DNA of 64,000 nucleotides from Candidatus Mediterraneibacter quadrami (GTDB taxonomy: Bacteria > Bacillota > Clostridia > Lachnospirales > Lachnospiraceae). Position 1 is the stretch's first letter. Each line of letters begins with the position of its first letter. The stretch covers positions 40,244 through 104,243 of the forward strand of contig DWUU01000022.1 in the NCBI GenBank assembly GCA_019120575.1, in the 5' to 3' direction. Positions 4,232 to 48,827 of the stretch are shown one piece after another. The translations under genes were made by a program, and so were the position numbers. Below the pieces are notes generated by a model. It did no database searches. It worked only from the letters and a program-made list of their open reading frames with translations, and was not told where the DNA came from.

Positions 4232-4420
4232 CTACATCTGCTTCCGCACAACCGCGTATTCATCCCCGTTCCTGTAATACGGGCACTGATAATATCGGTC
4301 TGACATAATCCTCACATAATCATCTTCATCCATATTCATATCGCACAGATATGCGCCATACTCATCATCATATACATAAAAAGCGCATGTCTCGCAGCTT
4401 ACCCGTTCTTTCTTCTTCAA
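4232..4420 (-). CDS. Small cysteine-containing protein, DUF6472-like
   Basis: About 62 residues. The reading frame has no ATG start. TTG at 4420 lies nine bases after AAGGAG, and another TTG at 4426 lies only three bases after it, so 4420 is preferred. The protein has SCETCAFYVYDDEYGAYLCDMNMDEDD followed by YYQCPYY: four cysteines (CxxC, C, C) spaced like a small zinc or iron-binding knot in a very acidic, tyrosine-rich chain. This resembles the DUF6472 proteins of Lachnospiraceae, whose function is unknown. The start lies just downstream of the 128-bp repeat array, whose last GGTATAAT points toward this gene. Confidence 0.65.
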   Translation of the reverse strand: MKKKERVSCETCAFYVYDDEYGAYLCDMNMDEDDYVRIMSDRYYQCPYYRNGDEYAVVRKQM

Positions 4421-4455
4421 TTTCAAATGCTCCTTGTTTCTTACTCTTGCAGAGT

Positions 4456-4850
4456 ATTATACCACGTGCGCAGAGAAGGAAGCGCTGCGAAGCAGCATTT
4501 ACTTCTCAAGCCGTGGCTTGCCGGTATAATCTCCGCGCAGCGGAGCAGCCCGGGACCGGGCTGGATTACACGTATGTGCAACCATTATACCACGTGCGCA
4601 GAGAAGGAAGCGCTGCGAAGCAGCATTTACTTCTCAAGCCGTGGCTTGCCGGTATAATCTCCGCGCAGCGGAGCAGCCCGGGACCGGGCTGGATTGCACG
4701 TATGTGCAACCATTATACCACGTGCGCAGAGAAGGAAGCGCTGCGAAGCAGCATTTACTTCTCAAGCCGTGGCTTGCTGGTATAATCTCCGCGCAGCGGA
4801 GCAGCCCGGGACCGGGCTGGATTGCACGTATGTGCAATCATTATACCACG
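4456..4850. repeat. Tandem array of three 128-bp hairpin-rich units
   Basis: The unit beginning ATTATACCAC recurs at exactly 128-bp intervals (4456, 4584, 4712), with the final boundary at 4840-4850; units are nearly identical. Each unit contains five short perfect hairpins: GCTGC-GAA-GCAGC, AAGCC-GT-GGCTT, CTCCGC-GCA-GCGGAG, CAGCCCG-GGAC-CGGGCTG and TTGCAC-GTAT-GTGCAA. The open reading frames across it are by-products of its 128-bp period. Minus-strand GGTATAAT at each unit boundary looks like a -10 element. A related partial copy lies near 16450-16503. It is not CRISPR-like: there are no spacers. Confidence 0.9.
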
Positions 4851-15317: not shown

Positions 15318-15632
15318 ATGAAATAAAAAAAGCGCCCTCCGGCAGATCGCTCTGCCAGAAGACGAAATAAATATTCCGCGTTACCACTTCTCTTGCCGGA
15401 AACAGCTCCGGCCGCTCATCCCCGTCGTCCGCGCTGCGGATTAACAGGTTTCCTTCTAACGGTGGAATACCGGTCCGGGTTACTTAAGGCTGCGCCTTTC
15501 TTCACCCTGACTGCTCGCAGGGGATAGCTCTCACGGTCATGCTGTTCCCTCACACCATCCGGGAACTCTCTGAAAACATGGATATCCTGAAAGTCATGTC
15601 CTGTTCTTCGCATTGGCTTATTTCTTAATCCT
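15318..15632 (-). promoter_or_regulatory. T-box leader of the cstA transporter gene
   Basis: On the minus strand the core GTGGTAACGCGG (about 15393-15382) is a variant of the T-box sequence. It is followed by a terminator with arms around CTGGCAGAGCGATCTGCCGG and a seven-base T run. Upstream are a stem I with GTTCCC/GGGAAC arms around GGATGGTGTGA, and a stem II/III region rich in CCGG. The specifier triplet could not be fixed by eye; candidates lie in GAGAGCUAUC near 15525-15535. Confidence 0.85.
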
Positions 15633-15707: not shown

Positions 15708-16406
15708 TCATTTCGTGCATCTCCGATTCACTTCCACTTTGTCCAGGATCCCGTGGGCCGACACTCCCGGATGTGTTACCCGGATCCGGCAGGTCTGCTC
15801 CGCAAACTCCGGATCGATCTTCAGCGCCCGCGCGATCTCCTGTACCTGCTGCCCTTTATCCATCCTCTTCAGGATCTGTTCGATGATCCCGAGAAGATCC
15901 CCCTCCGGAATATCAGCATCCGCCCCGGACATGCCGGCCGGCTCATGAGGGATATCAAGCCGCTCCACTGCCCACATCCCGTTATTGATCTCCAGTACCG
16001 CCATCGTAATATCCTGATGGAAGCGCCGCTTCCCGCAGCTTCCGGGATTAAGATACAGGCGTCCTTCCCTGACCTCTTCAGAATATTTGTGAGAGTGACC
16101 GAAAATGATCACCTGTCTGTCCCCCGGATCCTTCGGCAGATCCTTTTTATTGTGAACCATATAGAAGTTCACACCGCCCAGCGTAAACTCCAGATGATGC
16201 GGCAGATACTCCGCCCACTCTTTATCATTATTACCTCTGACAATATAGACCGGCGTATCTTCCCCGGCCGCTTCTTTCATCTGATCAACGATCTTCTGCG
16301 AATTGATATCTCCCGCGTGGAGCACGGCGTCGCACTCTCCGATCACCTTTATCACTTCCGGCCGGAGCAGGCCGTGTGTATCCGATAAAACTGCTATCTT
16401 CATCAT
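15708..16406 (-). CDS. MJ0936/YfcE-type metallophosphoesterase with C-terminal helical extension
   Basis: 232 residues starting MMKIAVLSDTHG; GGAGG lies five bases before the first ATG and eight before the second. Metal ligands of the calcineurin-like fold are visible as SDTHG, LHAGDI, RGNND, VHNKKD and FGHSHK. YfcE-type enzymes hydrolyse phosphodiesters with Mn2+. The core ends near residue 155; the remaining 75 residues (IPEGDLLGIIEQILKRMDKGQQVQEIARALKIDPEFAEQTCRI) look like a small helix-turn-helix-like domain, which is not usual for YfcE. Function of the extension is unknown. Confidence 0.85.
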   Translation of the reverse strand: MMKIAVLSDTHGLLRPEVIKVIGECDAVLHAGDINSQKIVDQMKEAAGEDTPVYIVRGNNDKEWAEYLPHHLEFTLGGVNFYMVHNKKDLPKDPGDRQVIIFGHSHKYSEEVREGRLYLNPGSCGKRRFHQDITMAVLEINNGMWAVERLDIPHEPAGMSGADADIPEGDLLGIIEQILKRMDKGQQVQEIARALKIDPEFAEQTCRIRVTHPGVSAHGILDKVEVNRRCTK

Positions 16407-16449
16407 ATATCCCTCCCGGATCTCTGTGCAGAGATAAGGCCATGATCCC

Positions 16450-16503
16450 GCCCCGGCTGCACATATGTGCAATCATTGTACCACTTGCGCGCAGAATAAG
16501 AAG
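16450..16503. repeat. Partial copy of the 128-bp repeat unit
   Basis: About 25 of 27 bases at 16458-16484 match the TTGCAC-hairpin/TACCAC junction of the array at 4456-4850, and the following GCGCAGA...AAGAAGG also resembles it. As in the array, it stands immediately upstream of a minus-strand gene, with a -10-like GGTACAAT pointing at that gene. Confidence 0.7.
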
Positions 16504-16596
16504 GTATAAAAAGCATTTCCTGTATCTGATATTTTGTTTATATTTTCTAAATATTCTGTTTATTTATAATTAATTATATTTTTTTCTGATTATGTG

Positions 16597-22345: not shown

Positions 22346-22487
22346 GCAGCCCGCACAAGCGGACTGCCGATATTATCATCCCAACAATCCTCTTATTGTT
22401 CGATCACTCGCTCAGGTTGGCACCTTCCTTGTCAGGGGTTGCCGCAGCTTCACAGATCCTTTGTATCTCCACTGCTCTGAATAAGAG
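22346..22487 (-). promoter_or_regulatory. SAM-I (S-box) riboswitch controlling metK
   Basis: The minus strand shows P1 arms CTTATT and AATAAG (22390-22487), CAGAGCAGTGGAGATA, the core GCTGCGGCAACC and AAGGTGCCAACCTGAGCG, all typical S-box elements. The aptamer is followed by a terminator with arms GCAGTCCGC and GCGGGCTGC and a T-rich tail (22346-22367). SAM binding is expected to favour the terminator. Confidence 0.95.
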
Positions 22488-48755: not shown

Positions 48756-48827
48756 AGGCGCAGACGAGATTTGAACTCGTGCATCAGGGTGTTGCAGACC
48801 CACGCCTTACCACTTGGCTACTGCGCC
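48756..48827 (-). tRNA. tRNA-Cys (anticodon GCA)
   Basis: Reading the minus strand: acceptor arms GGCGCAG and CTGCGCC with discriminator U, a D arm AGCC-AAGTGGTAA-GGC, anticodon stem GGGT/ACCC around CTGCAAC (anticodon GCA), and T arm ACGAG-TTCAAAT-CTCGT. CCA is not encoded. All cloverleaf arms fold. Confidence 0.96.

Follow-up and report, generated by a model that had tools for sequence, protein, structure and literature searches.

What is the 128-bp sequence that stands three times in a row ahead of a small gene in Candidatus Mediterraneibacter quadrami, and how did it come to lie there? We analyze a stretch of 64,000 nucleotides from this species (hereafter, the window), for which an initial annotation had proposed either a mobile promoter-bearing repeat or a source of structured RNA. 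Comparison with related genomes favors the first of these: the unit is probably a non-autonomous mobile element that sits at extended -10 promoter boxes and rebuilds them.

Background

Mobile elements in bacteria usually disrupt genes or activate them by accident. An element that used the -10 box as its integration site and regenerated it would follow an unusually host-friendly kind of targeting, akin to the homing on tRNA genes known from other systems. Such an element could sit upstream of even essential genes without obvious breakage, as the promoter box stays on both sides, and this would explain insertions upstream of murA, polA, pyrF and addB. A literature search (most subscription journals lay outside its scope) returned no described element targeting -10 boxes and no such repeat in Lachnospiraceae, and the family is apparently unnamed.

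Results

Tandem Repeats Finder (TRF) reports an array at 4456-4850 with a period of 128, 3.1 copies, 98% matches and a score of 769, which outranks by far the other rows among the five that it gives for the window. The array had been described as three exact 128-bp units; the tandem repeat holds, and "exact" was a slight overstatement, as the later units share 99% and 97% identity with the first over 142 nt. We read the array on the minus strand (the "P-orientation"), towards a downstream gene for a DUF6472 small protein of 64 aa with a TTG start (4232-4426, minus strand; PF20076, E=1.9e-27). In this direction the whole array (4456-4849, minus strand, from TRF, repeat comparison and model matches) has the form R-body-R-body-R-body-R, that is, three 128-bp units, where R is an extended -10 promoter box, TGGTATAAT(GATTGC).

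Each R lies on the minus strand, and in the window it reads GTGGTATAATGATTGC. The upstream-most copy, R1 (GTGGTATAATGATTGC, 4834-4849, from the R search and the logo), has its TATAAT at 4840-4845. Two internal copies (GTGGTATAATGGTTGC, from the R search) follow at 4706-4721, with TATAAT at 4712-4717, and at 4578-4593, with TATAAT at 4584-4589. The last, gene-proximal R, read from the sequence, comprises only GTGGTATAAT (4456-4465); its TATAAT, at 4456-4461, lies 29 nt ahead of the DUF6472 TTG start, with an AAGGAG ribosome site in between. No convincing -35 is found upstream of R1 at this site, where the extended -10 alone is evident; comparison with other loci indicates that R1 here is a -10 box older than the insertion.

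The body of unit 1, on the same strand, begins with three hairpins whose pairing is marked by covariation: hairpin 1 (GATTGCACATACGTGCAATC, 4820-4839) has double changes in 6/7 pairs, hairpin 2 (CAGCCCGGTCCCGGGCTG, 4802-4819) in 6/8 and hairpin 3 (CTCCGCTGCGCGGAG, 4787-4801) in 4/6. Next comes a short "guide", ATTATACC (4779-4786, from covariation), which is complementary to the GGTATAAT of R1, with which it would close a cloverleaf, and also to the next R. Hairpin 4 (4718-4772), a long imperfect palindrome CCACGGC..AGTAAATG..CGCTTCCTT..GCACGTGG delineated by alignment and covariation, is the most conserved sequence of the unit.

A partial relative of the unit, suspected near 16450 from the outset, proves to be real. 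Searches with R and with the hairpin 4 core identify a degenerate remnant of an old unit at 16469-16520 (minus strand), made up of the hairpin 4 3' arm, an R and hairpin 1; its R, GTGGTACAATGATTGC, lies at 16469-16484 on the minus strand and faces a minus-strand phosphoesterase-like gene (ORF 15708-16472). A similar remnant is present at the same locus in another genome (G019, L031). Altogether, the window holds 4 R-like matches versus 0.48 expected by chance, a number reached in 0/100 shuffles.

Is the array an artefact of assembly, as the initial annotation allowed? This is unlikely, because 2-3 copies in tandem recur in independent assemblies, that of the isolate Lachnoclostridium sp. An76 among them, and a relative has just one copy at the site that holds the window's array. 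Nor is the array without further copies elsewhere. The window's genome (G000) alone has seven array loci, namely the window triple, a pair on C19 and singles on C34, C25, C47, C44 and C9, in addition to remnants. The pair (L006) lies ahead of a ParA/Soj gene, beside several TGTTTCACGTGAAACA parS-type sites. By blastn, the unit is found in 22/36 other genomes of the genus and is absent from 24 genomes that each represent a different family of the order. A covariance model extends the range to 42/58 genus genomes (Mediterraneibacter and relatives), with up to 16 hits, and to 17/392 genomes sampled across the order Lachnospirales, in a patchy distribution. The named carriers are mostly chicken-gut Mediterraneibacter, along with Mordavella, Merdimonas and Lachnoclostridium sp. 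An76; further carriers are metagenome-assembled genomes labeled Blautia, Acetatifactor, Anaerobutyricum and Scybalocola. We found no matches to the element in 50,697 phages or 72,556 plasmids, and no exact match to its core in IMG/VR.

The element measures 128-132 bp at more than 100 loci. Partial elements, consisting of the cloverleaf alone or carrying internal deletions, are decay products of full units (L396 at murA in G036; L296, L299 and L303 at addB; L038 at DUF5685). Some of the orthologous copies are old ones that have been passed down vertically. For addB, the MDERER-type gene and DUF5685, the G000 copies have 0.92-0.95 identity to other G000 copies versus 0.77-0.82 to copies at the same gene elsewhere; other loci give the reverse pattern, same-gene copies being more alike than copies within a genome. 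This mixture fits a stock of old vertical copies together with repeated new insertions or conversion.

The hairpin 4 core, AAATGNCGC..GCGNCGCTT, also occurs in more distant repeats from other genera and families of the order. In the longer form GAAAA..AAATGNCGC..GCGNCGCTT..TTTTC it is common to a wider repeat superfamily in other Lachnospirales (L245-L250, L257 and L258 in G396, G428, G437 and G085; L251-L253 and L256 in G052, G305 and G374). The left halves of these repeats differ, reading CTCG[AC]AAGC..GCTTTCTCGTT or GCAGGCAAAGCCTGCTCAT, and several members have TATA-like ends.

The copies have a consistent relation to genes. Across about 107 loci, the element closely precedes a gene start and points the same way as the gene. 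We first looked for a same-strand downstream start at 109 array loci. Under a stricter definition, which required a ribosome site and 80 codons or more, such a start lies within 200 nt at 99/107 in the P direction; the other direction gives 31/103, and random positions 27%. The downstream genes are unrelated to one another; apart from DUF6472, they are what we take, from recognizing the translated start, to be addB, murA, pyrF, parA, MFS-like genes, AAA ATPases, DUF5685 and others.

Both ends of the element carry the box: TATAAT is perfect at 98/102 loci in R1 and at 83/102 in the second box, R2. Of the two boxes, only R1 is preceded by an enriched -35-like hexamer, at a spacing of 16-18 bp; among 53 independent loci, at least 4/6 -35 matches are seen in 40% at that spacing versus 16% at control spacings (p=4e-6). 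Upstream of R1, strong conservation ends at TGG, and beyond it the sequence is near background. Because the -35-like enrichment is confined to R1 and conservation stops at TGG, R1 can be identified as the extended -10 box of a native promoter. The proposal of a mobile promoter-bearing repeat is thereby borne out by dispersed copies, empty sites (below), the extended -10 box that bounds the element on either side and its constant direction with respect to the gene. At about 70% of loci GATTGC follows R2, meaning that element-derived sequence sometimes runs beyond it; the 3' boundary therefore differs between loci, and joining may involve something other than a clean transposition.

Empty sites allow the insertion point to be located. 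Three loci offer filled and empty pairs (addB, an MDERER-type gene and murA), and at all three a single 128-132 bp unit is inserted exactly at a TATAAT that is present in the pre-insertion site. At addB, which offers the best pair, comparison of G004 (L297) with G066 (L298) gives an exact 129-bp insertion at TATAAT, flanked by 29/30 matching bases to its left and 40/40 to its right; the insertion is clean to the base, without conversion, and the promoter is also empty in G020 and G027. The MDERER-type locus is empty in most of the 30 listed genomes and filled in 8; nearly all of its empty sites read TGTTATAAT, one TGGTATAAT and one GATATAAT. The murA site is empty in five genomes (G076, G074, G004, G066 and G002) and filled in G064, where 8 nt past R2 are replaced at equal length. 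It is conceivable that some of the empty sites arose by precise deletion. The comparison of copy number between relatives, suggested in the initial annotation, reveals that unit number changes between close relatives, since the DUF6472 promoter of the window has 3 units in G000, 1 in Ca. M. guildfordensis (G025) and 0 in Ca. M. excrementavium (G031). The unit-free promoter of the latter (L261) keeps a scar, GTGGTATGATGATTG/TATAAGAG.

The bases next to the box vary together with the guide. The two bases before the R1 TATAAT and the end of ATTATACC are GG/CC in 92 cases, GA/TC in 6 and GC/GC in 1, with about nine exceptions (p=1.5e-7 for the association of R1 flank and ATTATACC). At addB and murA, the A before TATAAT is native, as it is already there in the empty sites. 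In the empty sites of the MDERER-type locus this position is mostly T, and the filled sites have G (where the guide has C) or A (where the guide has T). Either the guide picks the site or the pairing is restored after insertion; ATTATACC would be a candidate guide that pairs with the target within a transposition complex.

The same observations bear on the main rival for the joining step, in which the element is the same and spreads by homologous recombination or gene conversion between promoter boxes, without a transposase, as R-body-R DNA anneals to native TGNTATAAT boxes. The variable 3' boundary and the equal-length swap of 8 nt at murA would suit this account, as would the G or A before the R1 box in filled MDERER sites as opposed to T in most empty ones, the homogenization of copies within G000 and the lack of any transposase among our findings. 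However, the six to nine bases shared between box and element are very short for homologous recombination, and the addB insertion is base-exact without conversion. We consider this route unlikely, if less so than the others discussed below, and prefer insertion of a mobile element at the -10 box.

If the element is mobile, which enzyme moves it? Our search recovered no mobilizing enzyme for it and no autonomous version. We examined 42 loci with Y1 genes; none of these genes has an element end or copy directly flanking it, and the hairpin 4 motif directly flanks no Y1 transposase gene outside two known element copies. One candidate is a REP-associated tyrosine transposase (RAYT, PF01797), of which G000 has a single RAYT-like gene (L349:2420-3380, G000:C47; PF01797, 1.9e-9; NF047646, 6.7e-21, 74.7 bits, below the cut-off of 80). 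RAYT/TnpA-REP enzymes work on hairpins with a short guide (PMC6006769), and a RAYT-like gene occurs in 29/36 of the genomes where the element gives strong hits, compared with 7/16 of those where it does not (Fisher p=0.02, phylogeny uncorrected). However, an element about 1.4 kb from a RAYT gene in G062 and G007 was set aside, as it lies at one syntenic locus in both, with an intervening gene in G062. Each TnpA-REP is reported to have its own REP family (PMC6006769), and the RAYT of G000 is bracketed on both sides by a different palindrome of the GTAG type, GGGACGTAGTAAAATT... Several element-bearing genomes, including G074 (98% complete) and G078 (90%), have no Y1 hit at all. With a palindrome of its own in G000 and a weak, phylogenetically uncorrected association, the RAYT was rejected as the mobilizer, and we hold it to be an improbable one. 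The palindrome beside the G000 gene, GGGACGTAGTAAAATTCAATTTTACTACGTCCC or near-identical on both sides, represents a separate REP-like system.

The fold of the unit, derived from an alignment of 33 units, speaks to whether it acts as DNA or RNA. In order, GGTATAAT of R1 is followed by hairpins 1, 2 and 3, which are adjacent, and by ATTATACC, which closes a four-way cloverleaf whose junction leaves hardly any base unpaired; a short linker then leads to hairpin 4, long and imperfect, which has CCACG/CGTGG at its foot and the next TATAAT directly after. Pairing is kept in 96.5% of cells and both sides change in 27/50 pairs, a result matched by 0/500 shuffles. Hairpins 1-3 vary freely in sequence while pairing is kept; in hairpin 4 the letters themselves are kept. 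Of the five hairpins first described, four are supported by covariation. The fifth, CAAGCC/GGCTTG, was dropped: it has no covariation, shuffles do as well in 208/500 cases, and its bases sit in the longer helix CCACGGC/GCACGTGG. Folding is much more favorable for either DNA strand of the array than for shuffled sequences (z -7.2 and -8.2; 0/200 shuffles), and in single-stranded DNA folding both take the covariation-supported structure (z -5.7 to -9.7).

Strong compensatory pairing and a constant position in the 5' leader are what one would expect of a cis-regulatory RNA leader, riboswitch-like or an attenuator, upstream of a regulon, with the tandem copies as repeated leaders. The pairs themselves, however, tell otherwise. 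Across 101 distinct units we counted 4718 Watson-Crick cells, 59 G-U and 89 A-C (one constant U-G pair excluded), whereas 70 TPP riboswitch sequences from the same genomes gave 14 G-U versus 3 A-C (Fisher p=0.001 versus the element, the cells not being independent). Because a functional P-strand RNA should favor G-U and A-C here exceeds G-U, the pairing looks as if it were constrained or generated at the DNA level rather than in an RNA leader. In addition, hairpin 1 and the closing stem take in the -10 box and the bases before the start, and so lie partly upstream of the expected transcription start. The downstream genes (addB, murA, pyrF, parA, MFS-like, AAA ATPases) form no related set, and close relatives have empty sites. 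Rfam covariance models at gathering scores return nothing at the array; below those scores there are just chance matches of the snoRNA type, which fall far short of the gathering level and none of which lies inside the repeat. The idea of a structured RNA source thus fares poorly, and we regard an RNA leader as very improbable. Ordinary Rfam features do occur on the minus strand of the window: a T-box leader (15355-15617), a SAM riboswitch (22390-22487) and a tRNA (48756-48827).

Finally, local duplication of an ordinary, immobile promoter would account for a promoter box at each junction of the tandem units, but it is already refuted by dispersed copies, the same body being found at over 100 loci that are unrelated to one another and spread over dozens of genomes, and being missing from empty sites, and has next to no chance of being correct.

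Discussion

Our preferred reading, a mobile element homing on promoters, can be laid out as follows. An element of about 128-132 bp would integrate site-specifically at extended -10 boxes (TGNTATAAT), in a single orientation, leaving the native -35 and -10 (R1) upstream. Its 3' end, CGTGGTATAAT, would set a second extended -10 at the old distance from the gene, which would so keep a -10 box at its original spacing. Promoter function could in this way survive the insertion, with the native -35/-10 then reading through the element, and the duplicated -10 box may drive transcription. Every copy thereby comes to lie between direct R repeats, and arrays of 1-3 or more change by whole R-to-R units. 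As DNA, the body folds into a closed four-way cloverleaf and a long imperfect hairpin, with ATTATACC pairing with the target box. Our comparisons demonstrate the dispersal, the empty sites, the exact insertion at TATAAT, the orientation, the variation in unit number and the covariation. Mobilization would occur in trans, probably as a folded single strand, the enzyme binding hairpin 4 and ATTATACC guiding it to TATAAT.

One may go further and see here a class of DNA-guided promoter-homing elements, in which an 8-nt guide on the folded strand pairs with TATAAT, the element inserts and the box is rebuilt, with a mobilizing enzyme common to the Lachnospirales superfamily that has the hairpin 4 core. 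We offer this only tentatively, and think it has less than an even chance of being right. In any case, more than 100 natural promoter insertions with 0, 1, 2 or 3 units are material for studying how -10 duplication tunes expression, and the element family is a clear lead to the mobilizing enzyme.

How does the element relate to known repeats? In being short (128-132 bp), non-autonomous and dispersed over more than 100 loci with empty sites, it resembles a MITE. It has no terminal inverted repeats, its termini being GATTGC... and ...CGTGG between direct TATAAT repeats. TATAAT is found on both sides of filled sites and once in empty ones; the second may be supplied by the element's own end, and the -1 base and the bases after R2 are not always duplicated. 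ERIC sequences, in an unrelated host group, are of similar size (about 127 bp), palindromic and intergenic, with conserved positions that show presence or absence; we know of no promoter-box termini or tandem R-to-R arrays among them.

The Correia elements (CREE/NEMIS) of Neisseria are small mobile repeats with sigma70-like promoters, often immediately upstream of genes (PMC10969869). Our element is likewise a small promoter-carrying mobile repeat upstream of genes, but Correia elements have terminal inverted repeats, whereas ours has none, sits in -10 boxes and has one orientation. Like BOX elements of Streptococcus, in which a variable number of tandem modules forms stable stem-loops with effects on neighboring genes (PMC3049150), it has stem-loops and tandem modules in variable number; BOX is modular (A-Bn-C) with terminal inverted repeats, in contrast to identical units that share R and are inserted at promoter boxes. 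REP, BIME and REPIN sequences with RAYT are also short, intergenic, palindromic and non-autonomous, in few to many copies per genome, but the present element is a 128-bp composite with promoter-box termini, fixed gene orientation and R-to-R tandem arrays, and in G000 the RAYT gene is flanked by a different palindrome rather than by this family. The unit works like a small non-autonomous mobile repeat, yet it lacks both the inverted repeats of a MITE and the RAYT association of a REP.

The layout also has a parallel in the IS200/IS605 group and its non-autonomous derivatives. IS608 has subterminal imperfect hairpins, keeps a fixed short sequence in its left flank, lacks terminal inverted repeats and inserts 3' of a short target recognized through pairing with an internal guide (PMC5934647). 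Hairpins, insertion 3' of a fixed target, an internal target-complementary sequence and the lack of terminal inverted repeats are all features of the element too, which keeps TATAAT in 98/102 left junctions and in empty sites. The differences are that it targets the TATAAT of a promoter where IS608 targets TTAC, that its possible guide has 8 nt with ordinary pairing, that a three-hairpin cloverleaf replaces the single left hairpin and that the target box doubles as the right terminus; no TnpA was found, and the 42 Y1 loci yielded neither a cognate enzyme nor a full-length element with the same ends. The element has one orientation and inserts on the 3' side of TATAAT; within it, the complementary stretch precedes the foot of hairpin 4, and TATAAT follows again on the 3' side. 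This arrangement can be likened to that of IS608, and by this analogy an IS608-like, guide-paired single-strand mechanism is plausible.
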